From positions 1,984,001 through 2,048,000 of the forward strand of contig NZ_JAHWXN010000001.1 of the NCBI RefSeq assembly GCF_023091245.1: DNA of 64,000 nt, written 5' to 3'. Shown here piece by piece: positions 29,442-61,792 of this stretch. The translations under genes were made by a program, and so were the position numbers. The number at the start of each line of letters is the position of its first letter. Position 1 is the stretch's first letter. The stretch is from Microbacterium croceum. Lineage in GTDB: Bacteria; Actinomycetota; Actinomycetes; Actinomycetales; Microbacteriaceae. The notes below the pieces were generated by a model. That model worked only from the letters and a program-made list of their open reading frames with translations, did not search any database and was not told the origin of the DNA.

Positions 29442-30137
29442 GTGACCAGTGCCGATGCGGTCGTCCTCGAATCCACGAAGGTGGCTGGCCGGCTTCGCGA
29501 TGCCATTCTCGACGGGATCCGTTCTCCCGGCAGCCGCCTGATCGAACGGGACTTGGCCGCCGAGTTCGGCGTCAGCCGGGTTCCGGTGCGCGATGCCCTC
29601 AAGATCCTCGAGGCGGAGGGACTGGTGACGCTTCGACCGCGGACCTGGGCGATCGTGCGCGAGTTCACCGACTCGGACATGACCGATCTCGACGAGGTCC
29701 GTTCGGTTCTGGAGCCGCTCGCCTTCCGTCTGGCGGCGGAGCGGCATCGTCCCGATGGCCTGGAGAAGTTGCGGCGGGCTCTCGATGAGCAGACGATCAG
29801 TGCTGCCGCGGGTGATCCGGTCGCGGCGCGCCGGGCAGCGAACGACTTCCACGAGCAGGTGACGGTCCTCGCCGAGAACCGTCTTCTCAGCGACCTCATG
29901 CAGGGCATGCGCAGCACGTTGCGCTGGGGTCTGGCGCAGCACGACGATCTCGCCGACATCACCGAACAGCACCGAGTGCTCTTCCAGGCGATCAGTGAGC
30001 GTGACGGCGATCGTGTGGAGGCGCTCGCGCTGGAGCACATCGACAGCAGCCGGCGTGCGCGCGAGGCGCACCTGCACGCCTCGAGGAGTGCAGGCTCGTC
30101 CTCAGCGGTGCACGAGGGCTCCTCGGGACGGTTGTAG
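29442..30137 (+). CDS. GntR family transcriptional regulator (FCD domain)
   Basis: This 231-residue protein has an N-terminal winged helix (about 10-75, LIERDLAAEFGVSRVPVRDALKILEAEGLV) and a C-terminal helical FCD ligand domain (about 85-215, with the metal or ligand residues in DFHEQV and the late EQH). FadR/VanR-type regulators sense organic acids. GTG 29442 follows GGGAGGATGAG; the frame opens at 29376 inside the secA terminator, so the longer form is unlikely. Its TAG stop forms the first half of the alaA promoter hexamer. Confidence 0.85.
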   Translation: MTSADAVVLESTKVAGRLRDAILDGIRSPGSRLIERDLAAEFGVSRVPVRDALKILEAEGLVTLRPRTWAIVREFTDSDMTDLDEVRSVLEPLAFRLAAERHRPDGLEKLRRALDEQTISAAAGDPVAARRAANDFHEQVTVLAENRLLSDLMQGMRSTLRWGLAQHDDLADITEQHRVLFQAISERDGDRVEALALEHIDSSRRAREAHLHASRSAGSSSAVHEGSSGRL

Positions 30138-30146
30138 GCTTGCTCG
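30135..30146 (+). promoter_or_regulatory. Predicted leaderless promoter of alaA, built on the GntR stop codon
   Basis: TAGGCT (30135-30140) with a 6-nt gap to ATG 30147; its first three bases are the TAG stop of the preceding gene. Confidence 0.55.
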
Positions 30147-31373
30147 ATGACACCATCGCGCACCTTCGACCAGTCGTCGAAGCTCAAGAACGTCCTGTAC
30201 GAGATTCGCGGAAACGCCCTCGTCGAGGCGGCGCGTCTGGAGGCAGAGGGACATAAGATCCTCAAGCTGAACACCGGGAACCCGGCGATCTTCGGATTCG
30301 ATGCGCCGCACCAGATCGTCCATGACATGCTGGCCGCGCTGCCCACGGCGCACGGCTACAGCGACAGCAAGGGGATCATCTCCGCGCGTCGTGCGGTGGT
30401 CAGCCGCTACGAGGAGATCGAGGACTTCCCGCGCTTCGGACCGGACGACGTCTACCTCGGCAACGGAGTGTCCGAGCTGATCACGATGACCATGCAGGCG
30501 CTCCTCGACGAGGGGGACGAGGTCCTGATCCCCGCGCCGGACTACCCCCTGTGGACGGCGATGACGAGCCTCGCCGGCGGCACGCCGGTGCACTACATCT
30601 GCGACGAGCAGGATGCCTGGCAGCCCGATCTCGAGGACATCCGCGCCAAGATCACTCCGCGCACCAAGGCGCTCGTGATCATCAACCCCAACAATCCGAC
30701 GGGAGTGGTCTACTCCCGGGAGATCCTCGAAGGGCTGGTCCAGATCGCACGGGAGCACCAGCTCCTGCTGCTCTCGGACGAGATCTACGATCGCATCCTC
30801 TTCGACGGCGCAGTCCACATCCCGACGGCCACGTTGGCGCCCGATCTGCTGTGCCTGACGTTCAACGGCTTGTCCAAGACGTACCGCGTCGCCGGATATC
30901 GTTCCGGATGGCTCGTGATCACCGGGCCGCAATCGCACGCCAAGGGCTTCATCGAGGGGATCACGCTGCTGGCGTCGACACGCCTGTGCCCGAACGTGCC
31001 CTCACAGCACGCGCTGCAGGCTGCGCTGTCGGGCGTGCAGTCGATCGATGCCCTCATCGCCCCCACGGGGCGTCTGCGTGAGCAGCGAGACATCGCATGG
31101 GAGGGACTGGAGCGGATTCCGGGGGTGTCCTGCGTCAAGCCGGAGGGGGCGTTGTACGCCTTCCCGCGGCTCGACCCCGATGTGCACGAGATCCGCGACG
31201 ACGCGAAGCTCGTCTACGACCTGCTGGTCTCCGAGCACATGCTGCTGGTACAGGGAACCGGTTTCAATTGGCCGACCCCTGATCACCTCCGCCTGGTCAC
31301 GCTCCCTGAGCCGCGCGTGCTGAGCGAAGCCGTCGAGCGACTCGGGAACTTCCTCGCGAGCTACCGCCAGTAG
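30147..31373 (+). CDS. alaA: Pyridoxal-phosphate aminotransferase, AlaA type
   Basis: This 408-residue class I/II aminotransferase makes alanine from pyruvate using glutamate. The PLP-binding Lys lies in FNGLSKTYRVAGYRSGW (about residue 246), with the NPNNPTGVVYS block near 180 and the substrate Arg in the C-terminal LRLVTLPE segment. The opening (SSKLKNVLYEIRGNAL) is typical of AlaA/AspC-like proteins. Its last 77 bp overlap the 3' end of the opposing CpaE-like gene. Confidence 0.9.
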   Translation: MTPSRTFDQSSKLKNVLYEIRGNALVEAARLEAEGHKILKLNTGNPAIFGFDAPHQIVHDMLAALPTAHGYSDSKGIISARRAVVSRYEEIEDFPRFGPDDVYLGNGVSELITMTMQALLDEGDEVLIPAPDYPLWTAMTSLAGGTPVHYICDEQDAWQPDLEDIRAKITPRTKALVIINPNNPTGVVYSREILEGLVQIAREHQLLLLSDEIYDRILFDGAVHIPTATLAPDLLCLTFNGLSKTYRVAGYRSGWLVITGPQSHAKGFIEGITLLASTRLCPNVPSQHALQAALSGVQSIDALIAPTGRLREQRDIAWEGLERIPGVSCVKPEGALYAFPRLDPDVHEIRDDAKLVYDLLVSEHMLLVQGTGFNWPTPDHLRLVTLPEPRVLSEAVERLGNFLASYRQ

Positions 31374-32547
31374 CGTCAGGCGCGGGCGTCGGCCCGAGAG
31401 ACGCGACGACCCCGCGGATCGATGCCACGAACGCCGACCGCGGAGTCACATCCGACATCGGACGTGCGTGGAGCAGCGCAGCATCCGCCGCGCGCTGATC
31501 GAACGGGAGGAAGGCGACGTCCGTGATGCCGGCGAACCGCTCGAGCGTGCGCCGGATCTGACCGCGTGCATCGAGGCCGAGAGGTCCTGATCGCATGCGG
31601 TTGATGACGACGCTGGTGGGGGTCGTCCCGGCAAGGCGGCGCAGTTCGGCATGGTCGCGGAGAAGACGGCTGATGCCGACCGGATCCGCGGCGGCGACGG
31701 CGATGATCGCGTCGGCTTCCCGCACCGACGCCGTCGTCGCTGCATGCCGACGAGGGCCTGCCATGTCGTAGGTCGCCTCATCGTCGGCGTCGAATGCGCC
31801 GCTCACGTCGACGATGGTCTCGTCCGCCCAGAGGCGGCACGCCTGCAGCGTGGTCGTGAGGCGTGACGCCGACAGCTCGGGCCACCGTGTCGGCCGGTTG
31901 ATCCCCGGGAGCACATCGAGATCGCCGCCGCTGGTCTCGATGGTGCTCGCGAGCCGCGTGAGCTCGCGCGCATCGAGTCCGCCGAGTTCTGCCCGCCGGC
32001 AGGCCGCCGCGATCCCCGGGGCGTCGTCGCTGATCCCGAGCAGCAGCGCGAGCGACGGCGCGACGGTATCGGCATCGATGAGGGCGGTCCGCCGCCCGGC
32101 TCGCGCGAGTTCGACGGAGAGTTGCACAGCGACGGTCGAACGCCCTGGGGCGCCATGCGGTCCCCACACCGCGATCACCCGGGGTGCCCGCTGCGACTCC
32201 TTCGGGTGAGGTGATGCGGGCAGATCGCGGAGCAGTGCGGCGGCGACCTCCCAGCCACTCGCATCGGCCGGAAGCGGGGCGATGATCCCGAGCCGGCCGA
32301 GCGCGCGGCTGCCGGTCTCGCCCACGGGCAGGATGCGGACCCCCGCACGATCGCAGGCCGCGATCAGATCGGAGGTCAGGACCGAGCGCACCGCCGGCAC
32401 CACGAGAGCTTCGACGTCGGCGAGGAGTGGGCGGATGGCGTCGATCGCCGGTGCAGCGGTCGCGACCACGGTGAGACCCTCCCACTCCAGTTCCACGCTC
32501 AGCTCCCGTGCACGTGGCTCGGCGATCGCGATCAGGACCCTCGTCAC
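31297..32547 (-). CDS. CpaE/ParA-like P-loop protein with both P-loop lysines replaced
   Basis: This 416-residue protein has an N-terminal receiver-like domain (about 1-110) and a C-terminal MinD/ParA/CpaE-type domain (about 120-390). The Walker A position reads GPHGAPGRST (129-138), where CpaE/Ssd proteins have a KGGxGK-type loop: the signature Lys is His and the P-loop Lys is Arg136. Later blocks TALIDADTVAPSLALLLG and ETIVDVSGAFD follow the normal fold. ATP hydrolysis is therefore doubtful. GTG 32547 overlaps the SAF-protein gene by 4 bp. Tad-locus genes (TadA ATPase, pilin, prepilin peptidase) are absent, so the pair is an orphan CpaB/CpaE-like module. Confidence 0.75.
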   Translation of the reverse strand: MTRVLIAIAEPRARELSVELEWEGLTVVATAAPAIDAIRPLLADVEALVVPAVRSVLTSDLIAACDRAGVRILPVGETGSRALGRLGIIAPLPADASGWEVAAALLRDLPASPHPKESQRAPRVIAVWGPHGAPGRSTVAVQLSVELARAGRRTALIDADTVAPSLALLLGISDDAPGIAAACRRAELGGLDARELTRLASTIETSGGDLDVLPGINRPTRWPELSASRLTTTLQACRLWADETIVDVSGAFDADDEATYDMAGPRRHAATTASVREADAIIAVAAADPVGISRLLRDHAELRRLAGTTPTSVVINRMRSGPLGLDARGQIRRTLERFAGITDVAFLPFDQRAADAALLHARPMSDVTPRSAFVASIRGVVASLGPTPAPDATGGSSRGSSRVARRLRSARAAQGA

Positions 32548-33164
32548 GAGCCCGATCCCACCGGAACCACCGAGAGGGCGGAGCCGCCGGTGACGGCGCC
32601 GAGCACGTCCGCGACGTCTGCGCGGTCGATCACCACCTCCACGGCGACTCCCGACTGCGCGAGCACGCCGTCCGGCTCCCGCACATCGCGCACGATCACG
32701 TCCGCGACCAGGATGCGCGGCACGTCGAATGTACGCCCGTCTTCGCGCGGCGGGGCATGCCAGAGCTCGACGACGGCTCCGGCCATCACCTCATCGGGCA
32801 CCGCGGTCGCGCTCTCCACCACGATGGTGGTGGTGCGGTTGTCGTCGGCGTCGCCGACGGCCGAGACCGGAATCAGCTCGCCCGCGACGACAGTCCGCGC
32901 CGCGACACGTCCTGGCGCCAGATCCTGCGGCGTCACGTAGTCGTCGCCGAGCGGGCCGAGCCCCACCTCGACCACCTGGAAGTCTCCTGACACGAGTGCT
33001 TCACCCTGCGTGATCGTCCTGGTCGCCTGCAGTGCGGGAGCGGTGCGATCCGAGGACGAGACGATGAGCCAGACACCGGAGATGGACAGGACGATCAGGG
33101 CGATGCCGATGAGGAACCGGACGTCTCCCCAGAAGGCGCGCCGCGGACGAGAGGGAGTGGTCAT
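32544..33164 (-). CDS. SAF-domain membrane protein (CpaB-like)
   Basis: This 206-residue protein has a basic N terminus, one transmembrane helix (about 15-36) and an SAF domain (about 45-105, RTITQGEALVSGDFQVVEV then TPQDLAPGRVAARTVVAGEL), followed by a beta-rich C-terminal part. SAF domains occur in CpaB/FlgA pilus and flagellar proteins. No pilus genes are near. ATG 33164 fits the family N terminus but has no good Shine-Dalgarno; ATG 33173 and GTG 33179 are alternatives. A DnaA-type box lies 41 nt upstream. It is co-translated with the CpaE-like gene. Confidence 0.75.
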   Translation of the reverse strand: MTTPSRPRRAFWGDVRFLIGIALIVLSISGVWLIVSSSDRTAPALQATRTITQGEALVSGDFQVVEVGLGPLGDDYVTPQDLAPGRVAARTVVAGELIPVSAVGDADDNRTTTIVVESATAVPDEVMAGAVVELWHAPPREDGRTFDVPRILVADVIVRDVREPDGVLAQSGVAVEVVIDRADVADVLGAVTGGSALSVVPVGSGS

Positions 33165-33200
33165 GGCGAACATCGTCACAGAGATCAGGGCACTGGCGGT

Positions 33201-33213
33201 CGAGTTATCCACA
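33201..33213 (+). promoter_or_regulatory. DnaA-box-like site, first copy
   Basis: CGAGTTATCCACA contains a perfect DnaA box (TTATCCACA, 33205-33213). It lies 41 nt upstream of the SAF gene start and 50 nt upstream of the HTH gene start. An identical 13-mer occurs at 34176. Confidence 0.55.
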
Positions 33214-33262
33214 GGAGCGCAGGGGAGTGGGGCTGTGCAGGCCCGTGGGGGAGAATGGGCTC

Positions 33263-33541
33263 ATGCCTGAATCGTTGCCCGTCGTCCCGCGCTTTCTCGC
33301 GCCCGCGCAAGTCGCGGAGCTGCTGCAGATCGGCGTCGGCGAGGTCATCGACCTCGTGCAGGAGGGCGAGCTCCGAGGCGTGCAGGTCGGAGCACCGGCG
33401 CGCTGGCGGGTCGAGGAGGTGAGCGTGGAGGAGTACCTCGCGGCGCAGGTGGAGCACTCCCGGCGGATGGCGCTGTGGAGACAGTCGCAGGTCGCGAGTT
33501 TTCCCGAGGTCTGGGGGGCGTCGACGGTTCAAAGGACCTGA
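33263..33541 (+). CDS. Small helix-turn-helix (excisionase/MerR-like) DNA-binding protein
   Basis: This 92-residue protein consists of a single winged-helix HTH of the excisionase/BldC type (LAPAQVAELLQIGVGEVIDLVQEGELRGVQVG, then ARWRVEEVSVEEYLAAQ) and a short C-terminal helix. ATG 33263 has GGGGGAG 10 nt upstream and GAGAAT 6 nt upstream, so either SD-led or leaderless translation is possible. It diverges from the SAF/CpaE-like operon and may control it. The 3' end overlaps the next gene by 13 bp. Confidence 0.8.
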   Translation: MPESLPVVPRFLAPAQVAELLQIGVGEVIDLVQEGELRGVQVGAPARWRVEEVSVEEYLAAQVEHSRRMALWRQSQVASFPEVWGASTVQRT

Positions 33542-34140
33542 TCGCTCCCCGTGCGCAGCGCGATGAGCGCCGCGAACGGGATGATTCGGAACCCTTGCAC
33601 CGCGGCTGCGATCCGTGCGGTGCCGGCGTCATGGACCGCCAGGTCGAGATGGTCGGAACCTGCACGATCGATCGTCCCGTGCACATCGTCGCCGATCGCC
33701 AGGCTCAGGTGCACGGGAACACGTCGGCGGGCGAGATCCCGGAGAACGAATCCGAGGCTCATTCGCTCGCGGAGTGGGCTTCCGGGCTCGGAGACATCTT
33801 CCAGGCTCGTCAACACACTGCCGTGATCCGCACGGATCGCGCGGATCGCGTCCAGCGGCATGATCCGGGTCGACCGCCCCAGGAGCAGGTCGTCTCCCGG
33901 CGCGGATTCCGCGGCCACCCAGTCGGCACCGAGCGCGCGCATCGTCACGGGGAGGCGACGTCCGTCCGCGAGCTCCAGCGTCACGGTCGCTCGTGCCTGA
34001 CACAGATGCCGTAGGCGGGCGCGGAGATCAAGGCGCGAGATGCGCAGCCGTTCGGACTCGGCGCTGAGCACCGCGCGCTCCGTCTCCCACTCCGCAGCCA
34101 GCTGACCTTCGAGGTCTTCGAATAGGCGATCCCAATGCAC
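33529..34140 (-). CDS. Conserved actinobacterial protein of unknown function
   Basis: This 203-residue soluble protein has an N-terminal helix (WDRLFEDLEGQLAAEWETE) and two beta-rich halves, each with a strand pattern that resembles an Sm-like barrel (TVTLELADGRRLPVTMRALGADWVAAES and VPVHLSLAIGDDVHGTIDRAGSDHLDLAVHD), which looks like an internal duplication. I recognise no catalytic motif. GTG 34140 is supported by TACGCT 7 nt upstream. A DnaA-type box lies 40 nt upstream, at nearly the same spacing as the one before the SAF gene. Confidence 0.7.
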   Translation of the reverse strand: MHWDRLFEDLEGQLAAEWETERAVLSAESERLRISRLDLRARLRHLCQARATVTLELADGRRLPVTMRALGADWVAAESAPGDDLLLGRSTRIMPLDAIRAIRADHGSVLTSLEDVSEPGSPLRERMSLGFVLRDLARRRVPVHLSLAIGDDVHGTIDRAGSDHLDLAVHDAGTARIAAAVQGFRIIPFAALIALRTGSDQVL

Positions 34141-34153
34141 GGATTCGAGCGTA
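34141..34153 (-). promoter_or_regulatory. Predicted leaderless promoter of the 203-aa unknown
   Basis: TACGCT (34148-34153, minus) with a 7-nt gap to GTG 34140. Confidence 0.5.
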
Positions 34154-34175
34154 GGTGAGCTGCCGGTTCCATATA

Positions 34176-34188: not shown

Positions 34189-34263
34189 TACCTTCGCTGC
34201 GCACCCCTCAGAGGTACCGCGCTCGTGCTCGACTGGCCGTCCGTCTTCCCCAGGAGAGAACCG

Positions 34264-34677: not shown

Positions 34678-36165
34678 GTGTCAACGCTTAGTGATCTCGC
34701 CCATGCGCAGGGCCGTCTGACCGACAACGACGTCGAATGGCTTCACCGCCTCGCGGGGGACGGGCAGTTGCTCGCCGACCTCGCATCGGCCGATATCGTC
34801 GTGTGGATCCAGACCGATGACGGCTCGTTCATCGCTGTCGCGCACGCGCGGCCGAGCGGGGCGGCGACGCTCTTCTACCGCGACATCGTCGGCGAGCGTG
34901 TACGGCCGCAGTGGCGCACGCAGGTTCAGGGTGCATTCGACTCCGCCGAGATCGTCGACTCCTCCTCGCCCGACTGGTTCGAGGAGACGCCGACCAGGGT
35001 CCGAGCCGTGCCCATCGTGGTCGGCCGACAAGGAGGAGGCGGGACGGCCGCGACGGCCATCGGTGTCGTCACGCGCCACACGAACCTGGGCGAGGTGCGG
35101 ACGCCGTCACGCCAGCAGATCACGTTCGACGAGTGCGCGAACGACCTGTTCCGCATGATCGCCGACGGCAGCTTCCCCGATCTGGCAGCTCCCACGTCGC
35201 CTCGGCGCGGCGCGCCTCGCGCCTCGGACGGGCTCATCCGCATCGACGTTGATGGCATCACGACCTTCGCGAGCCCCAACGCTCTCTCTGCCTTCAACCG
35301 CATGGGCTTCGACGACGAGTTGGAGGGGGAGTCTCTCGCCGAGGTCACCACACGTCTGGTGCCTCCGTCTCGCCAGGTCGATGAGTCTCTCCCCGTCGTG
35401 GTGACGGGCCGCGCGCCCTGGCGCACCGACATTGAAGCGCGCGGGGTCACCGTGTCGTTGCGTGCCATCCCGCTGAAGGATCACGGCACCCGAATCGGCG
35501 CGATCGTGCTCTGCCGCGACGTCTCCGAGCTGCGCCATCAGGAGCAGGAGCTCATCACCAAGGACGCGACGATCCGCGAGATCCATCATCGCGTGAAGAA
35601 CAACCTGCAGACGGTCGCCTCCCTGCTGCGGATCCAGGCTCGCCGGACCCACTCCGATGAGGCTCGCGACGCGCTCACGCAGGCCATGCGCCGGGTGGAC
35701 TCGATCGCCGTCGTGCACGACACGCTCGCGCAGGGGCTGACGCAGAAGGTCGACTTCGACGAGGTCTTCCATCGCGTGCTCAAACTCGTGGCCGAGGTCG
35801 CCTCTGCCCCCAACACGCGGGCGCGGACTCAGCTCACCGGACGCTTCGGCGTGCTGCCGAGCGAGTACGCCACTCCTCTCGCGCTCGCTCTCACCGAGGT
35901 CGTCACGAACGCGGTCGAGCACGGTCTCGCAGGCCAGGGGGGCAGCATCGCTATCGACGCGGCCCGCACCGATGAGAGCCTTCGGGTGACGGTGAAAGAC
36001 ACCGGACACGGTCTTCCCGAGGGGCGCATTGGGCAGGGACTGGGGACTCAGATCATCCGCACGCTCATCCAAGGCGAGCTCGGGGGGACGATCGAGTGGC
36101 ACGGCAGCGAGGGCGATGGCACTGAGGTGATCATCGACATCCCGCTGCGCTGGCTGACCAAATGA
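34678..36165 (+). CDS. pdtaS: Sensor histidine kinase PdtaS (HisKA_2 type)
   Basis: This 495-residue cytosolic kinase has an N-terminal GAF-like domain (about 10-155), a PAS-like domain (about 180-290), a HisKA_2 H-box (REIHHRVKNNLQTVASLLRIQARR, near 303) and a HATPase_c_2 domain (LTEVVTNAVEHGL, then DTGHGLP and GLGTQIIRTLI). PdtaS signals to the ANTAR RNA-binding regulator PdtaR, which is not in this window. The recalled neighbour whiB1 in M. tuberculosis (Rv3219/Rv3220c) is also the neighbour here, convergently arranged. Confidence 0.9.
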   Translation: MSTLSDLAHAQGRLTDNDVEWLHRLAGDGQLLADLASADIVVWIQTDDGSFIAVAHARPSGAATLFYRDIVGERVRPQWRTQVQGAFDSAEIVDSSSPDWFEETPTRVRAVPIVVGRQGGGGTAATAIGVVTRHTNLGEVRTPSRQQITFDECANDLFRMIADGSFPDLAAPTSPRRGAPRASDGLIRIDVDGITTFASPNALSAFNRMGFDDELEGESLAEVTTRLVPPSRQVDESLPVVVTGRAPWRTDIEARGVTVSLRAIPLKDHGTRIGAIVLCRDVSELRHQEQELITKDATIREIHHRVKNNLQTVASLLRIQARRTHSDEARDALTQAMRRVDSIAVVHDTLAQGLTQKVDFDEVFHRVLKLVAEVASAPNTRARTQLTGRFGVLPSEYATPLALALTEVVTNAVEHGLAGQGGSIAIDAARTDESLRVTVKDTGHGLPEGRIGQGLGTQIIRTLIQGELGGTIEWHGSEGDGTEVIIDIPLRWLTK

Positions 36166-37157: not shown

Positions 37158-37631
37158 TCAGGCGTCGATGCCGAGGAGCTTGCGGAGTCGTGCGACGTGT
37201 CCGGTCGCCTTGACGTTGTACTGCGCGAGCGTGATGACGCCGTTCTCATCGAGAACGAATGTCGAGCGGAGGACGCCCTCGACGACCTTGCCGTAGTTCA
37301 TCTTCTCGCCCCACGCGCCGTAGGCGTCGTGCACCGCGTGGTCGGGGTCACTCAGCAGCGTGAAGGTGAGACCGTCACGCTCACGGAACTCCGCGAGCGT
37401 GGCCGGCTCGTCGCGAGAGATGCCGATGACCCGGTAGCCGGCCCCCTGCAGCGAGGAGATGCTGTCGCGGAAGTCGCAGGCCTGTGTGGTGCACCCCGGC
37501 GTCATCGCGGCGGGGTAGAAGTACAGGACCGTCTTCTGGCCGTGGAGGTCGGACAGGCGCACGGTCGCGCCGTCCTGGTCCAGCAGGGCGAAGTCGGGGG
37601 CGGGGGATCCGGTTTCGAGGCGCTCAGTCAC
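37158..37631 (-). CDS. bcp: Thioredoxin-dependent thiol peroxidase (Bcp/PrxQ)
   Basis: This 157-residue peroxiredoxin reduces peroxides in the cytoplasm. The peroxidatic Cys lies in MTPGCTTQACDFRD (about residue 47), with a second Cys five residues later as in two-Cys PrxQ. The N-terminal DFALLDQDGATVRLSDL and YFYPAAMTPG blocks are typical. GTG 37631 is supported by TAGGCT 6 nt upstream. It lies just downstream of rsgA on the same strand with a 9-bp gap. Confidence 0.92.
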   Translation of the reverse strand: MTERLETGSPAPDFALLDQDGATVRLSDLHGQKTVLYFYPAAMTPGCTTQACDFRDSISSLQGAGYRVIGISRDEPATLAEFRERDGLTFTLLSDPDHAVHDAYGAWGEKMNYGKVVEGVLRSTFVLDENGVITLAQYNVKATGHVARLRKLLGIDA

Positions 37632-37643
37632 CCGCCCAGCCTA
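37632..37643 (-). promoter_or_regulatory. Predicted leaderless promoter of bcp, built on the rsgA stop codon
   Basis: TAGGCT (37638-37643, minus) with a 6-nt gap to GTG 37631; its TAG is the stop codon of rsgA. Confidence 0.55.
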
Positions 37644-38711
37644 TCGTCCTGGTGACTGCTCGGCCTTGTCGGCGAAGGTCTGCAGAAGGCGCTGGAGCGA
37701 GTCCAACCGAGCGCTCTCGGCCTCGCTGAGCTCTCCGCGTTCCTCGGCCTCGATCAGGGCGCAGTCCGGGGCGTCGGCGAGATGTGTGCAGCCGCGGGGG
37801 CAGTTCTCGGCGATGAGGGCGAGCTCCGTGAAGGCCGCCAGGATGTTGGCGGGCTCTACGTGGCCGAGCCCGAACGAGCGCACACCGGGGGTGTCGATGA
37901 CCCAACCCGAGCCCTCGGCTCCCTCGTAGCGGAGTGATACCGTCGAGGAGGAGGTGTGGCGTCCGCGACCGGTGACCTGGTTCACGTGGCCGGTGGCTCG
38001 CTTCGCGCTGGGGACGAGCTCGTTGACGAGGGTCGACTTGCCGACTCCGGAGTGGCCGACGAAGACGGTCGAGTGGCCGACGAGAGCGGTGCCGATCTCC
38101 TCGGTGGGCATCTCTTCGCGGGCACTGGTGAAGACACGCAGGTCCAGTCCGTCGAAGTGCGAGAGGAACGTCGTCGGATCGGCGAGATCGGTCTTGGTGA
38201 CCACGAGCAGCGGCCGGATGCCGGCGTCGAGCGCGGCCACGAGATAACGGTCGACCAGGCGCGCGCGGGGCTCCGGATCGGCGGCGGCGACGACGATCAG
38301 CATCTGGTCGGCGTTCGCGACGATCACGCGTTCCACCTGGTCGGTGTCGTCGGCGCTGCGGCGGAGGAGGGAAGTGCGCTCGACGATGCCGACGATGCGG
38401 CTGAGCGTTCCCTCAGCGCCCGAGGTGTCGCCGACGACCCGCGCCTGGTCTCCGGTGACGATCGGCATGCGTCGGAGTTCTCTGGCCCTGGTCGCCGAGA
38501 TGAGGTGCTCATCATCGGTTCCCTCTTCCAGCAGGACGGTGTAACGCCCGCGGTCGACACCGAGAACGCGGCCGATGACGGCGTCTTCGTGCGCGGGGCG
38601 ACGCTTGGTCCGTGGGCGGTTGGCCTTGGGGTTCGGTCGCGTGCGGATCGTGCTCTCGTCGTAGTCCTCGAAATCGTCATCGAGGTCGTCGGAGTCGCTG
38701 AGCCAGCTCAC
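37641..38711 (-). CDS. rsgA: Ribosome small-subunit-dependent GTPase RsgA
   Basis: This 356-residue circularly permuted GTPase acts in 30S maturation. After an acidic N terminus (DSDDLDDDFEDYDES) comes an OB domain, then G4 (TKTDL), G1 (GHSGVGKSTLVNEL) and G3 (DTPGVRSFGL), and a C-terminal zinc knuckle (CPRGCTHLADAPDC). GTG 38711 overlaps the aroA stop (GTGA), so rsgA is co-translated with aroA, as in many Actinobacteria. Confidence 0.95.
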   Translation of the reverse strand: MSWLSDSDDLDDDFEDYDESTIRTRPNPKANRPRTKRRPAHEDAVIGRVLGVDRGRYTVLLEEGTDDEHLISATRARELRRMPIVTGDQARVVGDTSGAEGTLSRIVGIVERTSLLRRSADDTDQVERVIVANADQMLIVVAAADPEPRARLVDRYLVAALDAGIRPLLVVTKTDLADPTTFLSHFDGLDLRVFTSAREEMPTEEIGTALVGHSTVFVGHSGVGKSTLVNELVPSAKRATGHVNQVTGRGRHTSSSTVSLRYEGAEGSGWVIDTPGVRSFGLGHVEPANILAAFTELALIAENCPRGCTHLADAPDCALIEAEERGELSEAESARLDSLQRLLQTFADKAEQSPGR

Positions 38712-40033
38712 GCGCCAGCGCCTCGCAGCATCCGTTCCCAGAGCAGGGTGAACTCGGGGAGGGTCTTGGCCGTGGTTCCGATGTCGTCGATCTCGACGCC
38801 GGGGACGCGCAGACCGATCAGGGCGCCGGTGGTCGCCATGCGGTGGTCGTGATGCGCTGCCCATCCGCCGCCGTGCAACGGCCGGGGGATGATGCGCAAA
38901 CCGTCGGAGAGTTCCTCCGCCTCGCCGCCGAGGGCCCGGATGTTGCCGATGAGTGCGGCGATGCGATCGGTCTCGTGCAGACGGATGTGACCGATGCCGC
39001 GGATCGTGGTCGGCGACTCGGCGAAGGCCGCGAGTCCCACGATCGTGGGCGTCAGCTCACTCGCCGCCGATAGATCGAGGTCCAGTCCGCGGATGCCGTT
39101 TCCGGCGCGCACGGTGAGCGCACCGCCGTGGCGGCTGGCGTGGGCGCCCATCGCCTGGAGGATCTCGGGGAGCAGCGCACCAGGCTGCGTCGAGTGCGAG
39201 GGCCAGCCGGTGATCGACACGGATCCGCCCGTGATGAGCGCCGCCGCGAGGAACGGCGCGGCGTTGGAGAGATCGGGCTCGATCGCGATCTCCTTGGCCC
39301 GGGGCACGCCGGCCTCGACGAGCCATTCGCCCACTGCGGGACGTTCGATCCGGATGCCGCGTCGGCTCAGCGACTCGATCGTCATGTCGATGTGCGGCAG
39401 GCTCGGCAGATGCTCACCGGTGTGGACGAGGTGGAGCCCGACGTCGAAGCGGGGTGCAGCCAGGAGGAGCCCGGAGACGAACTGGCTCGAGGCGGAGGCG
39501 TCGATCTCGACGCGGCCCCCGCGGATGCGGCCGTGACCGCGGATCGTGAACGGCAGCGACCAGGTCCCTTCGTCGTCGATATCGACGCCGAGGTCGCGCA
39601 GGGCGCTGATGAGCCCGCCCATCGGTCGGTGCAGTGCGGTCTCGTGCGCGGTCAGATGCACGTCCTGCGCGGCGAGCCCGGCCAGCGGGGCGATGAATCG
39701 CATGACCGTTCCGGCCTGACCGCAGTCGACGGTCACTCCGCCGGTGAGCTTCGCGGGGGTCACGGCGAGGTCGGGACCGAACTCGCCGCCGGCATCCACC
39801 TCCTCGATTCCGACCCCGATCGCCCGCAGGGCGTCGACCATACGGCGGGAGTCGTCGGAGTGCAGCGGCGCCACCAGGCGTCCGGGTCCATCGGCGATGG
39901 CCGCGATGATCAGCTCGCGGTTCGTCAGCGATTTCGAACCCGGGATGGTGAGTGCGGCGTGCACCGCATCGTCGACGGTGGGCGCGATGTAAGCGCCCCG
40001 GACAGGGGGAGGGGAATACCTGTTGACGCTCAT
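38708..40033 (-). CDS. aroA: 3-phosphoshikimate 1-carboxyvinyltransferase (EPSP synthase)
   Basis: This 441-residue enzyme joins PEP and shikimate 3-phosphate in the shikimate pathway. Visible features are the [12 protein letters not shown] loop near 33, [17 protein letters not shown] near 105 with the GTxxR pocket, and the late RIHLHETDRI-type block ([20 protein letters not shown]). ATG 40033 matches the usual N terminus ([10 protein letters not shown]); the frame runs upstream to 40213 as shadow. The start codon lies inside the spacer of the sigma-R-type promoter on the opposite strand. Confidence 0.95.
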
Positions 40034-54833: not shown

Positions 54834-56063
54834 GTGAATCCCTCGACTCAATCGAGGGGTGCGGCGAAGAGGGCGCTCCTCTCTCTCGCCATCGGCAGCT
54901 TCGGAATCGGCATGACCGAGTTCGTGATCATGGGCCTGCTGCCCAACATCTCCTCCGACCTGCTCCCGTCGCTCTGGGCGACCAGCCAGGAGGACGCGCT
55001 GAGCCAGGCCGGCTGGTTGATTTCGCTGTACGCGCTCGGTGTTGTCATCGGCGCACCGACGATCGCCGGTTTCGTGGCCCGCTATCCGCGGCACCGAGTG
55101 ATGATCGTGCTCGCCCTCGCACTGACCATCTTCAACGCGCTCACCGTGGTCCTCCCGACGTTCGAGCTGGTCGGGATCTCTCGCTTCCTCGCGGGCCTCC
55201 CACATGGCGCCTACTTCGGCATCGGCGCGCTGGTCGCGGCCGATGTGATGGGCCCGGGCAACCGTGCTAAGGGAGTGGCGTTCATCCTCACCGGGCTCAC
55301 GGTCGCGAACGTGGTCGGGGTGCCGTTGGGCACCTATCTCGGCCAGCAGTTCGGATGGCGGGCGGCGTTCGCCGTCGTCGCCCTCGTCTTCGCCCTCGCC
55401 ACGCTCTGCATCACGTTCTTCGTGCCGAAGCGCCCCGGTGAACCCGGACGCACGATGCGCCAGGAGCTCGGGGTGTTCCGCATCCGCCAGGTGTGGTTCA
55501 CCCTTGGCGTCGGTGCGATCGGCTTCGGGGGTTTCTTCGCGGTCTACAGCTACGTCGCACCGCTGGTCACCGAGGTCGCCGGAGCGCCGGACTGGTTCGT
55601 GCCGATCGTGCTCGTGCTCATGGGCCTCGGGATGACGGCGGGAAACCTGGTCGGTGGGCACCTGGCCGACATCGACCTGCGCCGCACGCTCCTCTACGGA
55701 CTCGCGGCGATGGCAGTGGTGTTCGCGATGCTGGCGCTGCTGGCTTTCTGGATCGTGAGCCTGAGCCTCCTCGTCTTCGTCGTCGGATTCGTGTCGTCGG
55801 TGCTCAGCCCGACGATCCAGACGAGGCTCATGGACGTCGCCGGCGACAACCAGTCGATCGCCGCGGCGATGAACCATTCTGCACTCAACATCGGCAACAG
55901 TCTCGGGGCGTTCTTGGGTGGCGTCGTGATCGCCCTCGGATGGGGTTTCACCGCTCCGGCCTGGACCGGCGCGGCTCTGGCGATCGCGGGACTGCTGATC
56001 GCGCTGGTGTCGTACCGGATCGAAGCGCGTCGACCCGCGGCTCCGGTACGGGTCGCGTCGTAG
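54834..56063 (+). CDS. MFS exporter (AraJ/chloramphenicol-efflux-like)
   Basis: This 409-residue major facilitator has twelve transmembrane helices. The opening GSFGIGMTEFVIMGLLPNIS is typical of the drug/sugar efflux branch that includes AraJ and Cmx-like proteins, and the motif-A-like loop is ARYPRHRVMIV between helices 2 and 3. It likely exports small molecules by proton antiport; the sequence does not define a substrate. The GTG start is leaderless by prediction, and its TAG stop is used as the first half of the next promoter. Confidence 0.85.
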   Translation: MNPSTQSRGAAKRALLSLAIGSFGIGMTEFVIMGLLPNISSDLLPSLWATSQEDALSQAGWLISLYALGVVIGAPTIAGFVARYPRHRVMIVLALALTIFNALTVVLPTFELVGISRFLAGLPHGAYFGIGALVAADVMGPGNRAKGVAFILTGLTVANVVGVPLGTYLGQQFGWRAAFAVVALVFALATLCITFFVPKRPGEPGRTMRQELGVFRIRQVWFTLGVGAIGFGGFFAVYSYVAPLVTEVAGAPDWFVPIVLVLMGLGMTAGNLVGGHLADIDLRRTLLYGLAAMAVVFAMLALLAFWIVSLSLLVFVVGFVSSVLSPTIQTRLMDVAGDNQSIAAAMNHSALNIGNSLGAFLGGVVIALGWGFTAPAWTGAALAIAGLLIALVSYRIEARRPAAPVRVAS

Positions 56064-56072
56064 AGTGACGGG
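56061..56072 (+). promoter_or_regulatory. Predicted leaderless promoter of the NUDIX gene, built on the MFS stop codon
   Basis: TAGAGT (56061-56066) with a 6-nt gap to GTG 56073; its TAG is the stop codon of the MFS gene. Confidence 0.55.
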
Positions 56073-56678
56073 GTGAGCGACCCCGAAGAGTCCCTGCCCG
56101 TCGCCGGCACCGTCGTGCTGCTGCGCCCCGCTGCGGCCGGGTTCGAGGTGCTGCTGATCCGACGCCCCGATCGCGGATCGTTCGCGGGCGCATGGGTCTT
56201 CCCCGGTGGGAAGGTCGAGGAGATCGACCGGCGACCCGGTGGATCAGAGCGAGAGGATGCCCGCCGTGCCGGTATCCGCGAAACTCTCGAAGAGGTCGGC
56301 CTCGAGATCGGCGAGCTCGTGGTCCTGTCGCAGTGGCAGCCGCCGCGCGAGGCGCCGACCCGCATCCGCACCTGGTTCTTCCTGGCTGCGGCCCCGGATC
56401 AGCAGCCATCGCCCTCGGCCGATGAGGTGAGCGAGATCGCGTGGGTCAGCCCGGCGTCCGCCCTCGAGCGACACGGCGCCGGCGCGTGGACACTGTTCCC
56501 GCCGACCTGGATGACCTTGCACAGGCTCACGGCGTTCGATGACATCGCATCCGTTCTCGCCGCTGCCGGCACCGCCGACGTGTTCCAGACGCGTGTGCAC
56601 GACGAGGGCCGCGCGTTCGAATGGGCGCAGGGGCGGCTTGACGCCTCACGCCTGCCCTGGACGTTCGGCCCCGCCTGA
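56073..56678 (+). CDS. NUDIX hydrolase
   Basis: This 201-residue protein has a Nudix fold with the motif-like region GGKVEEIDRR...EDARRAGIRETLEEVGLEIGEL (about 45-85), matching Gx5Ex7REUxEExGU with an insertion between the first Gly/Glu and the REUxEE core, as in the NUDT7/CoA-type branch. It would cleave nucleoside-diphosphate-linked compounds; which one is unknown. GTG 56073 is the first plausible start; the preceding gene ends 10 nt before it. Confidence 0.85.
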   Translation: MSDPEESLPVAGTVVLLRPAAAGFEVLLIRRPDRGSFAGAWVFPGGKVEEIDRRPGGSEREDARRAGIRETLEEVGLEIGELVVLSQWQPPREAPTRIRTWFFLAAAPDQQPSPSADEVSEIAWVSPASALERHGAGAWTLFPPTWMTLHRLTAFDDIASVLAAAGTADVFQTRVHDEGRAFEWAQGRLDASRLPWTFGPA

Positions 56679-56692
56679 GCCGAGTCCCGTGG

Positions 56693-57901
56693 TCAGCTCT
56701 CGAGCAGTCGCCGCAGATGCGTGCCGACCGCTTCGCTCTCGATCAGGAAGCCGTCGTGGCCGAAGTCGCTCGCGAGCACCACGGCCTCGTTGCCGTCGAG
56801 AGTGTTCGGGACGCTGCGGGCGATCCGGTGCTGCCCGTCGACGGGGAAGAGCCGGTCGCTGTCGATGCCGAGCACGAGCGTGGTCGCGGTGACCGCGTGC
56901 AGAGCCTCTTCGACGCCACCGCGGTCGCGGCCGACATCATGCGAGTTCATCGCCTCGACGAGCGTGATGTAGCTGTTCGCATCGAAGCGGCGCGTGAACT
57001 TGTTGCCGTGGAAATCGAGGTACGACTCGACGGCGAATCGTCCACCGTGGCCGAGCGGCGACACATCCGACTGCCAGGAGCGCTGGAAGCGCTGGTTGAG
57101 CTCGATCGGACTGCGGTAGTTCAGCAGGGCCATGCGTCGGGCGAGGGCCAGGCCGCGGTGCGGACCGTCTCCGTCGCTCAGGTCGTAGTACTCGCCGCCT
57201 TGGAACCGGGGGTCCATGCGGATCGTGCCGATCTGCACGGTGTTCAGCGCGATCTGGTCAGCGGTGGTCACCGGGGGAGAGGAGAGCACCGCCAGACGCT
57301 CGACGCGTTCCGGATGCGTGATCGCCCACTCCAGGGCGTGCATACCGCCCATCGAGCCGCCGACGACCGCCGCCCAGCGGTCGATCCCCAGGGCGTCGGC
57401 GAGACGTACCTGCGCCGCCACCTGGTCACGGATCGTCAGGTAGGGGAACCGTGAGGCCCACTCGTAGCCGTCGGGGGCGACGCTCGCCGGTCCGGTGGAC
57501 CCCTGGCATCCGCCCAACATGTTGGGGGCGATCAGGAACCAGCGGTCGGTGTCGAGGGGGGCGCCGGGACCGGTGAGGTCCTCCCACCAGCCGGCCGTGG
57601 GGTGCCCGGCACCGGCGGGGCCGCGCACATGGCTGTCGCCGGTGAGGGCGTGCAGCACGAGCACGGCGTTGTCGCGTGCCTTGTTCAGCTCGCCCCAGGT
57701 CTCGTAGGCGAGGCGGATGCCGGGCAGCTCGCTCCCGCTCTCGGTGCGGAACGCCCCGAACGAGGCGAACCGTCGCCCGCCGACCGGGTCGCCATCACGC
57801 CAGGCTCCCGTGGCGGGAGGGCGCGCGCGCAGCAGGCGCACATCGGCCTCCGTCACGGGCGCCGATGGCACCGTGTCCTCGGAGGTCGTCTGCCAGTCCA
57901 T
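56693..57901 (-). CDS. metX: Homoserine O-acetyltransferase MetX
   Basis: This 402-residue alpha/beta hydrolase acetylates homoserine for methionine synthesis. The nucleophile elbow is VVGGSMGGMHALEW, with AYETWGELN and NMLGGCQGSTGPAS blocks upstream and the catalytic Asp/His in GIDSDRLFPVDGQ and DFGHDGFL. ATG 57901 matches the usual start; GAGAAT lies 6 nt upstream, so it may have its own promoter. It follows metY on the same strand after a 280-bp gap containing a strong hairpin. Confidence 0.95.
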   Translation of the reverse strand: MDWQTTSEDTVPSAPVTEADVRLLRARPPATGAWRDGDPVGGRRFASFGAFRTESGSELPGIRLAYETWGELNKARDNAVLVLHALTGDSHVRGPAGAGHPTAGWWEDLTGPGAPLDTDRWFLIAPNMLGGCQGSTGPASVAPDGYEWASRFPYLTIRDQVAAQVRLADALGIDRWAAVVGGSMGGMHALEWAITHPERVERLAVLSSPPVTTADQIALNTVQIGTIRMDPRFQGGEYYDLSDGDGPHRGLALARRMALLNYRSPIELNQRFQRSWQSDVSPLGHGGRFAVESYLDFHGNKFTRRFDANSYITLVEAMNSHDVGRDRGGVEEALHAVTATTLVLGIDSDRLFPVDGQHRIARSVPNTLDGNEAVVLASDFGHDGFLIESEAVGTHLRRLLES

Positions 57902-58126
57902 GGCTCCATTCTCGCCTGGCTGGACGACTGTCCGCCGAAAGTTACGGTGCGGGTGCCCGCGATGCCGCGGAGTTGCCCGGGTCAGAGGCCCAAATGGTCG
58001 CGTGTTCCGCATCCTCCCCGGGCGTTTCCCGTGGCGGGTGAGGCGTGCGCGGTACTCGATCGAGCTGGACAGTTGAGCGACAGTCGCACGGGCGGGCATC
58101 GAGCGGCGCGCAGAACGGCCGTGACG

Positions 58127-58164
58127 CAGAGATGCCCCGGACCTTCCGGTCCGGGGCATCTCTG
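58127..58164 (-). terminator. Terminator after metY
   Basis: A perfect 17-bp stem (58127-58143 with 58148-58164) with a TTCC loop lies 18 nt downstream of the metY stop. It separates metY from metX. Confidence 0.75.
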
Positions 58165-58181
58165 TTCTCTGAGGAGGAGAC

Positions 58182-59504
58182 TCAGGCGCGAGCGGCCTCC
58201 GTGACGCGGCGAGCCGCGGCGAGGGCCTGGTCGAGGTCGGCCTTGAGGTCTTCGATGTTCTCGATACCCACCGAGAGACGCACGAGACCGGGGGTGACGC
58301 CCGCGGTGAGCTGCTGCTCCGGAGTCAGCTGGGCGTGCGTGGTGGACGCCGGGTGGATGACGAGCGAGCGCACGTCGCCGATGTTGGCGAGGTGGCTGAA
58401 CAGCGAGAGGCTGTTCACGAACTCGCGACCGGCCTCCACGCCGCCCTTGAGCTCGAAGGACAGCACGGCACCGACACCCTTGGGGGCGTACTCGTTCGCC
58501 TTCGCGTACCAGGGAGAGGAAGGCAGACCCGAGTAGTTGACCGTCGCGACGTCGTCACGGTTGTCGAGCCACTCGGCGATCTCCTGCGCGTTCTGCACGT
58601 GGCGCTCGATACGCAGCGACAGCGTCTCGATGCCCTGGATGAGGTTCCAGGCGCTCTGCGGAGCGATCGCGGAGCCCAGGTCGCGCAGCAGCTGCACGCG
58701 CGCCTTGATGATGTACGCGAGCGCGTCGCCGACCGCGGCCGTGTAGCTCGCGCCGTGGTAAGAGGGGTCCGGAACCGTGAGGCCCGGGAACTTCTCGACG
58801 TTCTTCGACCACTCGAACGAGCCCCCGTCGATGATCGCGCCGCCGATGGTGGTGCCGTGGCCGCCGAGGAACTTGGTGACCGAGTGGACGACGATGTCGG
58901 CGCCGAACTCGAACGGACGGATCAGGTATGGCGTCGCGATCGTGTTGTCGACGATGAGCGGCACGCCGGACTCGTGCGCGACGTCGGCGACCGTGCGGAT
59001 GTCGAGGATGTTGATCTGGGGGTTGCCGATGGTCTCCGCGAAGAACAGCTTGGTGTTCGGGCGGACGGCGCGACGCCATTCCTCGGGGTCGTCCTGGTTC
59101 TCGACGAATGTGACCTCGATGCCGAGCTTCGCGAGCGTGTACTTGAACAGGTTGTAGGTGCCGCCGTAGATGGAGCTCGAGGCGACGAAGTGGTCGCCGG
59201 CTTCGGCGATGTTCAGCACGGCGAAGGTCGAGGCGGCCTGACCGCTGGCGAGGACGAGAGCGCCGGTGCCCCCCTCCAGAGCGGCGAGGCGCTGCTCCAG
59301 CACATCCTGCGTCGGGTTCTGGATACGGGTGTAGATGTTGCCGAACTCCGCGAGGGCGAAGAGGTTCGCCGCGTGGTCCGCGCTGTCGAAGACGTAGGAG
59401 GTGGTCTGGTAGATCGGCGTGGCGCGAGCCTTCGTGACCGGGTCGGGAGCGGCGCCCGAGTGAATCTGCTTGGTCTCGAAACGCCAGGTCTCGGGTGCGG
59501 ACAT
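58182..59504 (-). CDS. metY: O-acetylhomoserine sulfhydrylase (MetY type)
   Basis: This 440-residue PLP enzyme of the Cys/Met metabolism family makes homocysteine from O-acetylhomoserine and sulfide. Marks are the opening ETKQIHSGAAPDP, PIYQTTSYVF, NPTQDVLEQRLAALEGG, the PLP Lys in HSVTKFLGGHGTTIGG, and the C-terminal SVGIENIEDLKADL. Its length and the KFLGGHGT block favour MetY over cystathionine synthases. ATG 59504 follows GGGGGA. Its substrate is made by MetX, the next gene. Confidence 0.93.
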   Translation of the reverse strand: MSAPETWRFETKQIHSGAAPDPVTKARATPIYQTTSYVFDSADHAANLFALAEFGNIYTRIQNPTQDVLEQRLAALEGGTGALVLASGQAASTFAVLNIAEAGDHFVASSSIYGGTYNLFKYTLAKLGIEVTFVENQDDPEEWRRAVRPNTKLFFAETIGNPQINILDIRTVADVAHESGVPLIVDNTIATPYLIRPFEFGADIVVHSVTKFLGGHGTTIGGAIIDGGSFEWSKNVEKFPGLTVPDPSYHGASYTAAVGDALAYIIKARVQLLRDLGSAIAPQSAWNLIQGIETLSLRIERHVQNAQEIAEWLDNRDDVATVNYSGLPSSPWYAKANEYAPKGVGAVLSFELKGGVEAGREFVNSLSLFSHLANIGDVRSLVIHPASTTHAQLTPEQQLTAGVTPGLVRLSVGIENIEDLKADLDQALAAARRVTEAARA

Positions 59505-59555
59505 GTTGTTCCCCCTGGAACTCGTGGAAGGTCGATGGCAGATGCCGTTTCAGCG

Positions 59556-59582
59556 AGAGTACGGAACTTCGGGTCGTGTCAA
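59556..59582 (-). promoter_or_regulatory. Promoter of metY (-35/-10)
   Basis: TTGACA (59577-59582, minus) and TACTCT (59556-59561, minus) are separated by 15 nt, short of the usual 17 but with a perfect -35. The leader of about 45 nt has no SAM-riboswitch fold that I can see. Confidence 0.5.
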
Positions 59583-59639
59583 CAACGGGTGGGAAATGTG
59601 ACGTAACAGTGGGAGCCGCCGAAAAGACACGGAACATCG

Positions 59640-59651
59640 TACGGTGGAGGC
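59640..59651 (+). promoter_or_regulatory. Predicted leaderless promoter of the SDR gene
   Basis: TACGGT (59640-59645) with a 6-nt gap to ATG 59652; the gap GGAGGC resembles a Shine-Dalgarno but is too close to the start. Confidence 0.5.
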
Positions 59652-60434
59652 ATGGCCAACAGACGTGCAGTGGTGACAGGTGCGAGCTCGGGAATCGGTG
59701 CGGCGACGGTGCGCGCTCTCCGATCCAGCGGATGGGACGTCGTCGGCGTCGCGCGACGAGAGGATCGTCTCTCGGCGCTCGCCGCGGAGACCGGCGCATC
59801 GGCGATCGCCTGCGACCTGACCAACCCCGATGCCGTCGACGCGCTCGTCGCGGAGCTCGAGAAGTCCGGCCCCGTGCATGCGCTCGTGCAGGTCGCCGGT
59901 GGTGCCCGCGGGACCGATCGTGTCGAGGATGCATCGATCGAGGACTGGCAGTGGATGTTCGACGCCAACGTGCTCGCCACTCAGCGTCTCGTGGCCGGTC
60001 TCTTGCCGTCGCTGCGTCGTGCCGCGGCGGCCGACGGCCACGCCGACACGATCTTCGTCACCTCGACCGCCGCGCAGACCGCCTATGCAGGTGGGGCCGG
60101 ATACAACGCCGCGAAGGCGGCGGAGGCGATGTTGGTGCGTGTGCTCAGACAGGAGCTGAACGGCGAGCCGATCCGCGTCGTCGAGGTCGCCCCCGGCATG
60201 GTGCACACCGAGGAGTTCACGCTCAACCGCCTGGGTGGTGACGCAGTGGCGGCCGAGGCCGTCTACTCCGGGGTGGAGGCTCCGCTTCTTGCCGACGACG
60301 TGGCCGACGTCATCCGTTACGCGCTGGAGTCGCCCGGCCACGTGAACCTCGACCAGATCACGATGCGTCCGGTCGCACAGTCCGCCCAGCACCTCCTCGC
60401 GCGCGGGCCGCTGCGCGTGCGTTCCATCGACTGA
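59652..60434 (+). CDS. Short-chain dehydrogenase/reductase
   Basis: This 260-residue classical SDR has the nucleotide-binding [17 protein letters not shown] at residue 8, the NAG-like AGGARG, catalytic Ser in [14 protein letters not shown] and YNAAK (Tyr-x3-Lys). It is closest in style to YdfG-like serine/3-hydroxy-acid dehydrogenases. The late LNLDQI-like stretch ([11 protein letters not shown]) is typical of that group. The substrate is unassigned. It runs into ung with a 2-bp gap. Confidence 0.88.
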
Positions 60435-60436
60435 CG

Positions 60437-61162
60437 ATGGCGCGGACTCTCTCCGAGCTCGCCGCCGACGGCCAGATCGACGACGGATGGGCGCAGGCGC
60501 TCGCTCCGGCACAGGACGACATCACCGCGTTGGGGGAGCGGTTGAGGTCCGAGCAGGAGGCGGGCCGCGGGTATCTGCCCGAGGGGCGCAATGTGCTGCG
60601 CGTGTTCCAGCGGCCGCTCGCCGATGTGCGGGTGCTCATCACCGGTCAGGACCCGTACCCCACGCCAGGGCATCCGATCGGTCTGTCCTTCGCCGTCGAC
60701 CGAGAGGTCCGCCCGCTGCCGCGCAGTCTCGGCAACATCTACAAGGAGCGCGAGACCGACCTCGGCATTCCGCCTGCCCCGCACGGCGACCTCACGGCGT
60801 GGAGCGACCAGGGCGTGCTCCTGCTGAACCGCGTGCTCACGGTGCAGCCCGGCGCCGCGGGCTCTCACCGCGGCTGGGGATGGGAGAAGGTGACCGAGTT
60901 GGCGATCCGCACGCTCGTGGCGCGCGAGCAACCGCTGGTCGCGATCCTGTGGGGCAAGGATGCTGCGAACCTGCAGCCGCTTCTCGGTGAGACTCCGGTG
61001 ATCGCCTCGGCGCATCCGTCTCCGCTGTCGGCCCGCCGAGGCTTCTTCGGCTCCCGTCCGTTCTCGCGCGCGAATGCGGTGCTTGCGGGCATGGGCGCGG
61101 CACCGGTGGACTGGCGGGTGGAGGGCGAGCCCCTCGTTCCCTCAGCGCCCCCCTTTCCCTAA
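60437..61162 (+). CDS. ung: Uracil-DNA glycosylase, family 1
   Basis: This 241-residue enzyme removes uracil from DNA. The water-activating Asp72 is in [16 protein letters not shown], the central block is [24 protein letters not shown], and the minor-groove loop is [21 protein letters not shown]. The length is typical of actinobacterial Ung. It starts 2 bp after the SDR stop, so they may be co-transcribed, and its TAA stop forms the first half of the next promoter hexamer. Confidence 0.95.
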
Positions 61163-61171
61163 GCTGGGCGC
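61160..61171 (+). promoter_or_regulatory. Predicted leaderless promoter of the GNAT gene, built on the ung stop codon
   Basis: TAAGCT (61160-61165) with a 6-nt gap to ATG 61172; its TAA is the stop codon of ung. Confidence 0.55.
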
Positions 61172-61792
61172 ATGCAGTTCGAACCGGGGGACCGACGCCG
61201 TGTCCTTCCTCGTCATCTGCGCCCCGCCGTTCCGGTCGAGGTCTTCTCTTACACCATCCGGCCGGTCAGGGCCGTAGACCTCCCGCACGTGCGCGAGATC
61301 TACAACCACTTCGTGAGCAACTCCGCCGTGACTCTCGACGAACGGCGCAGCAGCATTCCGTACTGGCGGGAGAAGTTCGCACTGCTCACGAAGTTGAATC
61401 TGCCATTCCTCGTCGCGGTCTCACCGGCCGGCGTGGTGCTCGGCTATGCGCTCGCGCAGCCGTGGGCGGGGAAGAACGCCTACCGCTACACCGTCGAAGA
61501 TTCGATCTACCTCGGCCCTGGCGCTGGAGGGAAGGGTCTGGGAGCCGCGCTGCTGCAGGCGCTGATCGACGCGTGTGAACAGATCGGCATCCGCGAGATG
61601 GTCGCCGTGATCAGCGACAGCGGCGCGGAGGCATCGATCCGCCTGCACGCAAAGCTCGGTTTCGAGGAGGCCGGGCGCATGGGCCGCGTCGGCTACAAGT
61701 TCGGTCGCGAACTCGGCACGGTCTACATGCGGCGTGCACTGCGTCCGAGCGGCCGGCGCCGCGGACTCTTCTCGTCGAGCCGCGGCCGCTAG
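61172..61792 (+). CDS. GNAT family N-acetyltransferase (PPT/Pat-like)
   Basis: This 206-residue GNAT protein begins with about 28 basic residues before the conserved core ([31 protein letters not shown]), then an acetyl-CoA loop [23 protein letters not shown] and the late [18 protein letters not shown]. The EIYN...VTFE-like core resembles phosphinothricin-acetyltransferase and methionine-sulfoximine acetyltransferases, but the substrate is unproven. Its stop shares CTAG with the stop of the opposing oppF gene. Confidence 0.85.

Follow-up and report, generated by a model that had tools for sequence, protein, structure and literature searches.

In Actinobacteria, leaderless genes of the so-called 'TA-led' kind have been reported to make up more than 20% of all genes (Zheng et al. 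2011, PMC3160421), and Cortes et al. (2013, PMC3898074) found no conserved -35 element in the leaderless transcriptome of Mycobacterium. Here, we describe a placement of apparent promoters of this type in the GC-rich bacterium Microbacterium croceum, in a stretch of 64,000 nucleotides (nt) of contig NZ_JAHWXN010000001.1 (positions 1,984,001 to 2,048,000), referred to below as the window. At four codirectional gene junctions in this window, the upstream stop codon, TAG or TAA, is also the first half of a TANNNT hexamer, the predicted -10 element of the downstream gene. The reading that we favour, with a probability of about 0.85, is that these are ordinary leaderless promoters whose -10 element, already a TAG or TAA in over half of such promoters, was captured as the stop codon of the gene upstream.

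The four junctions each read TA(G/A)NNT-N6-start: the first codon of the hexamer is the in-frame stop of the upstream gene, the downstream start codon lies 6 nt after the hexamer, and the gene gap is 9 base pairs (bp) without any overlap of stop and start. A first-pass annotation had described the junctions in this way, and both the sequence and the ends of the open reading frames (ORFs) agree with it. On the forward strand, the hexamer TAGGCT (30135..30140), followed by TGCTCG-ATG, is the TAG stop of a gntR-type gene and the predicted -10 of an alaA-like gene. The former, a GntR/FCD regulator gene according to its ORF and the Pfam GntR and FCD families (29376-30137), is situated between secA (26542-29361) and the alaA-like aminotransferase gene (30147-31373; PF00155, class I-II), whose ATG is the predicted transcript start; the nearest named genomes for this aminotransferase are Microbacterium species, with up to 95% identity. 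On the reverse strand, TAGGCT (37638..37643), followed by GGGCGG-GTG, serves as the TAG stop of rsgA and the predicted -10 of a bcp-like gene. The rsgA-like GTPase ORF (37641-38864; Pfam RsgA GTPase) has an uncertain start, which the gene caller put at 38711, while the bcp-like peroxiredoxin gene (37158-37631; PF00578, AhpC-TSA) begins with GTG. The remaining two junctions are again on the forward strand. TAGAGT (56061..56066), then GACGGG-GTG, holds the TAG stop of an MFS transporter gene (54834-56063; PF07690, MFS_1) and the predicted -10 of a NUDIX hydrolase gene with a GTG start (56073-56678; ORF and Pfam); TAAGCT (61160..61165), then GGGCGC-ATG, holds the TAA stop of a uracil-DNA-glycosylase-like gene (60437-61162; PF03167) and the predicted -10 of a GNAT acetyltransferase gene with an ATG start (61172-61792; ORF and Pfam). 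Pfam backs the gene names given at first pass, but 'ung' only as a member of the uracil-DNA glycosylase superfamily and 'alaA' only as a class I/II aminotransferase.

In order to characterize these hexamers, we used a sample of 2.464 Mb, namely: the window, 60 further stretches of 20 kb from its own 3.68-Mb genome (G000), and 20 stretches from each of three other genomes of the genus Microbacterium (G021, G034 and G045). A total of 2255 genes were called with a simple codon-usage caller that is blind to promoters and disallows overlaps of more than 40 nt. In a first sample of 766 called starts, TANNNT was present at exactly -12 for 72 and at -13 for 14, and each of the remaining distances between 6 and 39 nt gave 0-7. 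In the full sample, where genes starting less than 80 nt from a stretch end were skipped, 366 of the 2255 genes are leaderless-like, defined as having TANNNT at -12 or -13 relative to a start codon no more than 45 nt from the called start, compared with 13-30 genes at six control distances. Among divergent leaderless-like promoters, which have no codirectional upstream stop nearby, the hexamer contains TAG or TAA in 101 out of 173. The window itself has further leaderless-like starts with TANNNT at -12 and no stop overlap, at 34678, 41021, 46224, 51356 and 59652 (forward strand) and at 25705 (reverse strand).

Gaps of 9-10 bp look operon-like, and the junctions might belong to ordinary short-gap operons in which the downstream gene is translated through termination-reinitiation or from a Shine-Dalgarno site, with TANNNT present by chance. 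Reinitiation is in general allowed by a stop and a start so closely spaced, as stated by Shell et al. (2015, PMC4633059). Shine-Dalgarno-like words, however, precede 2 of the 21 starts with a stop on the promoter (a set that does not include the GNAT junction of the window), which is the background level: they are found before 27/334 of the other leaderless-like starts and at 172/1592 in the coding background, as against 315/608 of operon-like codirectional starts (gap of -4 to 30). Thus, the marks of an operon pair with translational coupling, a Shine-Dalgarno site or an overlap of stop and start, are absent here, the first of them as judged for the class.

The spacing itself speaks against the operon explanation as well. 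For codirectional pairs with a called start no more than 250 nt from the stop, we located the in-frame ATG or GTG of the next gene relative to the first base of the upstream stop. The first-pass annotation had named beforehand, as evidence against its proposal, a 9-bp gap that is equally frequent with stops not forming TANNNT. What was found is a start at +12 (the 9-bp gap) after 17 of 52 TARNNT stops and after 10 of 1309 other stops (Fisher's exact test, 3e-19). This spacing depends on T as the sixth base, since it occurs after 6/146 TARNNV stops and after 4/1163 TGA stops (TGANNT 0/157, TGANNV 4/1006). At +13, starts follow 6 of the 52 TARNNT stops, and 2, 2 and 7 of the 146 TARNNV, 157 TGANNT and 1006 TGANNV stops, respectively. 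The 23 cases at +12 or +13 come from 22 unrelated gene pairs, as only rsgA-bcp occurs twice. Six of the 23 have the 10-bp gap, TARNNT-N7-start, so that the 9-bp gap claimed earlier stands at all four junctions and fails as a strict rule; a fixed 9-bp architecture is ruled out by this form and by a further one, with TGA on the sixth base, that is described below.

The stops of upstream genes also pile up on the -10 element. In leaderless-like genes, 21 upstream stops lie exactly on the first base of the hexamer, while 85 are spread over the 60 nt before it (about 1.4 per nt) and 5 lie in the 60 nt beyond. The set is 21 rather than 23 owing to the 45-nt limit on the start, and the GNAT junction of the window is among those left out. 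In a count made without gene calls, among 279 TANNNT sites, 9 carry the stop on the hexamer and 2 are reached in another frame, with 8 more inside a single ORF set aside. For the reversed hexamer TNNNAT, which could also begin with a stop, the numbers are 0 and 3 among 165 sites (54 inside one ORF), and for the control ATNNNA, which cannot, 0 and 1 among 92 sites (41 inside one ORF).

We then read the four junctions in relatives, using 80 loci for alaA and 30 each for bcp, NUDIX and GNAT (the sets of 30 include the window's own locus), with mechanical assignment of the stops. Upstream of alaA, the -10 hexamer is kept in 74/80 loci (as TAGGCT, TATCCT, TACGCT and further variants); a gntR-type stop coincides with it in 4/80, and 7/80 have a gntR homologue upstream. 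In 52 of the 80, fewer than 300 nt separate the end of secA from the downstream alaA. In the four loci chosen for folding (L002, L005, L011 and L046), a strong, GC-rich hairpin with a short T tract directly precedes the alaA -10 element (-34.0 to -42.2 kcal/mol). In the secA-alaA region of the window (26542-30147), the corresponding span is the coding sequence of gntR, which folds weakly (-18.7 kcal/mol), and the hairpin is missing. Given the adjacency of secA and alaA in relatives and the absence of the hairpin here, gntR most likely came in between the two genes and ended on a pre-existing promoter. One locus, L059 (JACEFY010000059.1), is filed as Stenotrophomonas maltophilia and carries a Microbacterium-like alaA (82% identity) with its promoter, probably an assembly contamination.

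At the bcp junction, 29 of the 30 loci retain the hexamer; the stop lies on it in 16, upstream of it in 9 and downstream in 2, and 2 loci have no upstream homologue. For GNAT, 28/30 loci keep the hexamer, with the stop on it in 7 (one of them doubtful), upstream in 10, downstream in 1 and elsewhere in 1, and in 9/30 a TGA stop begins on its sixth base. Cross-checking left four GNAT rows in doubt: L160 was counted as stop-on-hexamer and has no such listing in a separate reading of the junctions, L157 shows TGA on the sixth base in that reading, the stop of L148 was assigned 633 nt away, and L153 was scored as lacking the hexamer, although TAGGCT is visible there before ATG. For NUDIX, the hexamer is present in 12 of 30 loci, with the stop on it in 8 and upstream in 4. 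None of the four orthologue sets showed TANNNT at 22/23 nt, which was used as the control distance. The hexamer is thus conserved in relatives independently of the upstream gene, most weakly for NUDIX; because it is retained where the stop lies elsewhere, is in another frame or is missing, the promoter is the constant element and the stop the variable one. The stop is an incidental, secondary use of a conserved promoter. The -10 is also retained in loci that lack the upstream gene or in which this gene ends elsewhere, and we regard ordinary operon structure as a very unlikely account of these junctions.

The TGA form at the GNAT junction is a second kind of overlap, TANNNTGA, in which the sixth base of the -10 is the first base of the upstream TGA stop and the gene gap is 4 bp (L143-L147, L151, L162, L168 and L170); L168 and L170 have the N7 version with a 5-bp gap. 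Frequent as it is at this locus, it was rejected as a general class, as only 2 of the 38 listed TGA cases with a start at +7/+8 in the genome sample had TA correctly placed.

Taken together, the TANNNT peak at -12, the stop-class test, the background level of Shine-Dalgarno-like words and the retention of the -10 in relatives (least clear for NUDIX) support the earlier prediction that each downstream gene has a leaderless promoter of its own. Several observations weigh against our reading, and the first of them also favours the possibility that a common stop context met a common start context by chance and was picked out by a pattern-seeking reader. In the window's own genome outside the window, a start at +12 follows only 1 of 15 TARNNT stops (others 3/620), which is no clear excess taken alone; there, 1.2 Mb hold one 9-bp and one 10-bp case, compared with four cases in the 64 kb of the window. 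The excess is also uneven among genomes: in G045, just 1/5 TARNNT stops have a start at +12 (others 6/224), as against 7/13 in G021 (others 1/220) and 4/14 in G034 (others 0/222). Furthermore, 18 of the 30 NUDIX relatives, all at 38-55% identity, are without the -10; no -35 element rose above the display thresholds in the promoter set; and the caller's gene starts are approximate, the GNAT start being called 117 nt late. Finally, a small sample from another family (100 kb of one genome, with 10 leaderless-like promoters) held a single hexamer reached by a coding-like upstream frame, and that frame was not the stop frame.

Chance nevertheless does not account for the class. With the window left out, a start at +12 follows 13 of 47 TARNNT stops and 10 of 1286 other stops (Fisher's exact test, 2e-14), and the excess survives in the three relatives alone (12/32 vs 7/666). 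Together with the piling up of stops on the -10 (21 vs about 1.4 per nt), this led us to reject coincidence for the class as a whole, an explanation that we consider highly improbable. The excess outside the window stems mainly from two relatives. Leaderless-like genes with a stop on the -10 number 8/61 in G021, 6/79 in G034, 2/48 in G045 and 5/178 in G000, where 3 of the 5 lie in the window. The rate outside the window, 13 cases at +12 in 2.4 Mb, is about 5 per Mb. The four cases in 64 kb are therefore a local excess that is not representative and is indistinguishable from the luck of the window, and chance may explain the clustering within it. A count in 100 genomes across the phylum, a rough guide that is silent on stops, gave 202 TAGNNT-N6-ATG against 79 for the reversed control in the window's own genome; the excess was also clear in several others, among them G143 (120 vs 15), G066 (210 vs 74) and G086 (138 vs 34), and it was absent or inverted in many of the 100.

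The capture of promoters as stops could proceed as follows. Each downstream gene would have its own vegetative (SigA-type) leaderless promoter, with the -10 TANNNT situated some 12 nt upstream of the start codon, and transcription would begin at the first base of that codon, giving an mRNA without a leader. As a G or A occupies the third hexamer position in over half of the leaderless promoters of the genus, the -10 would often already hold TAG or TAA. Where an upstream gene has lost its former stop, or has been placed before such a promoter, it would end on the hexamer if it arrives in that frame; in the other frames, it would read on into the next gene. The captured stop would then persist because selection on the promoter preserves the hexamer, which would prevent its later loss. 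We infer from the DNA where transcription starts, which sigma factor acts and in what order the events took place, this order being likeliest at alaA.

Alternatively, the overlap itself might be selected, either with the -10 as a fail-safe stop that bars upstream ribosomes from the next gene, or as a coupling of upstream translation and transcription to the use of the promoter. Of 15 leaderless hexamers reached by a coding-like upstream frame that stays open for at least 300 nt, as judged by coding signature and not by gene calls, 13 are reached in the stop frame, all 13 with TAG or TAA, and 2 in another frame, although 72 of 173 divergent hexamers do not contain such a stop. However, the same pattern is expected if reading into the next gene in another frame is selected against, or if such genes are missed by a caller that disallows overlaps above 40 nt, and the stop moves in relatives. 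A higher share of TAG/TAA in codirectional leaderless -10 elements was also considered and dropped: it is 93/141 in those with a stop 1-200 nt upstream and 101/173 in divergent ones (P = 0.2, not significant). We thus find selection for the overlap unlikely, and continue to favour promoters captured as stops. A broader possibility, which we put forward as a tentative and somewhat doubtful one, is that in GC-rich, leaderless-rich genomes the -10 elements form a selected reservoir of stops, so that a leaderless promoter lying right at the 3' end of a gene would seldom be tolerated unless its hexamer served as the stop of that gene. The two would form a fused element, and a notable share of TAG/TAA stops would be kept by transcription rather than translation.

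Codirectional genes with 9-10 bp between them are usually assigned to one operon. In Microbacterium, a definable subset of such close pairs is probably not one operon. The overlap can mimic operon structure, and this subset can be picked out from sequence alone by the rule TARNNT-N6/7-RTG, in which the first codon is the stop. Stop-codon usage may be affected as well. Among the codirectional stops of the four-genome sample, 1163 of 1361 are TGA, and of the 198 that are TAG or TAA, 23 fall on a correctly spaced hexamer of promoter-like form; promoters may therefore partly set the choice of stop codon.

The view taken at first pass, that this class had not been described before, agrees with the open-licence literature, in which a search with a limited vocabulary found no description of an overlap between -10 element and stop codon. 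The same literature yielded no study of leaderless transcript starts in Microbacterium, with only work on Corynebacterium glutamicum matching. In that species, sub-operons have their own transcription starts within operons (PMC3890552), and in Streptomyces coelicolor a second promoter lies inside the upstream gene of the codirectional pair absA1/absA2 (PMC6457490); the passages available from both describe no overlap of -10 and stop. Leaderless expression from a -10 directly before the ORF is also known in Deinococcus-Thermus (PMC12340547), which differs in being another phylum, and 'stop codon' is absent from the main text of that report, as it is from that of the study on 'TA-led' genes (PMC3160421). 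Nor does the term occur in the Mycobacterium study of Cortes et al., and none of the passages available from Shell et al. describes a -10 that contains the stop of an upstream gene. In those two studies, the TANNNT -10 element (PMC3898074) and an RTG at the first base of the transcript (PMC4633059) were established by transcript mapping. The junctions resemble the 'TA-led' genes, which have TANNNT some 12 bp upstream of the start codon and, as in our set, three middle bases that hold little information. As far as these accounts go (PMC3160421, PMC3898074, PMC4633059), the hexamers at the four junctions match the known leaderless promoter of Actinobacteria.

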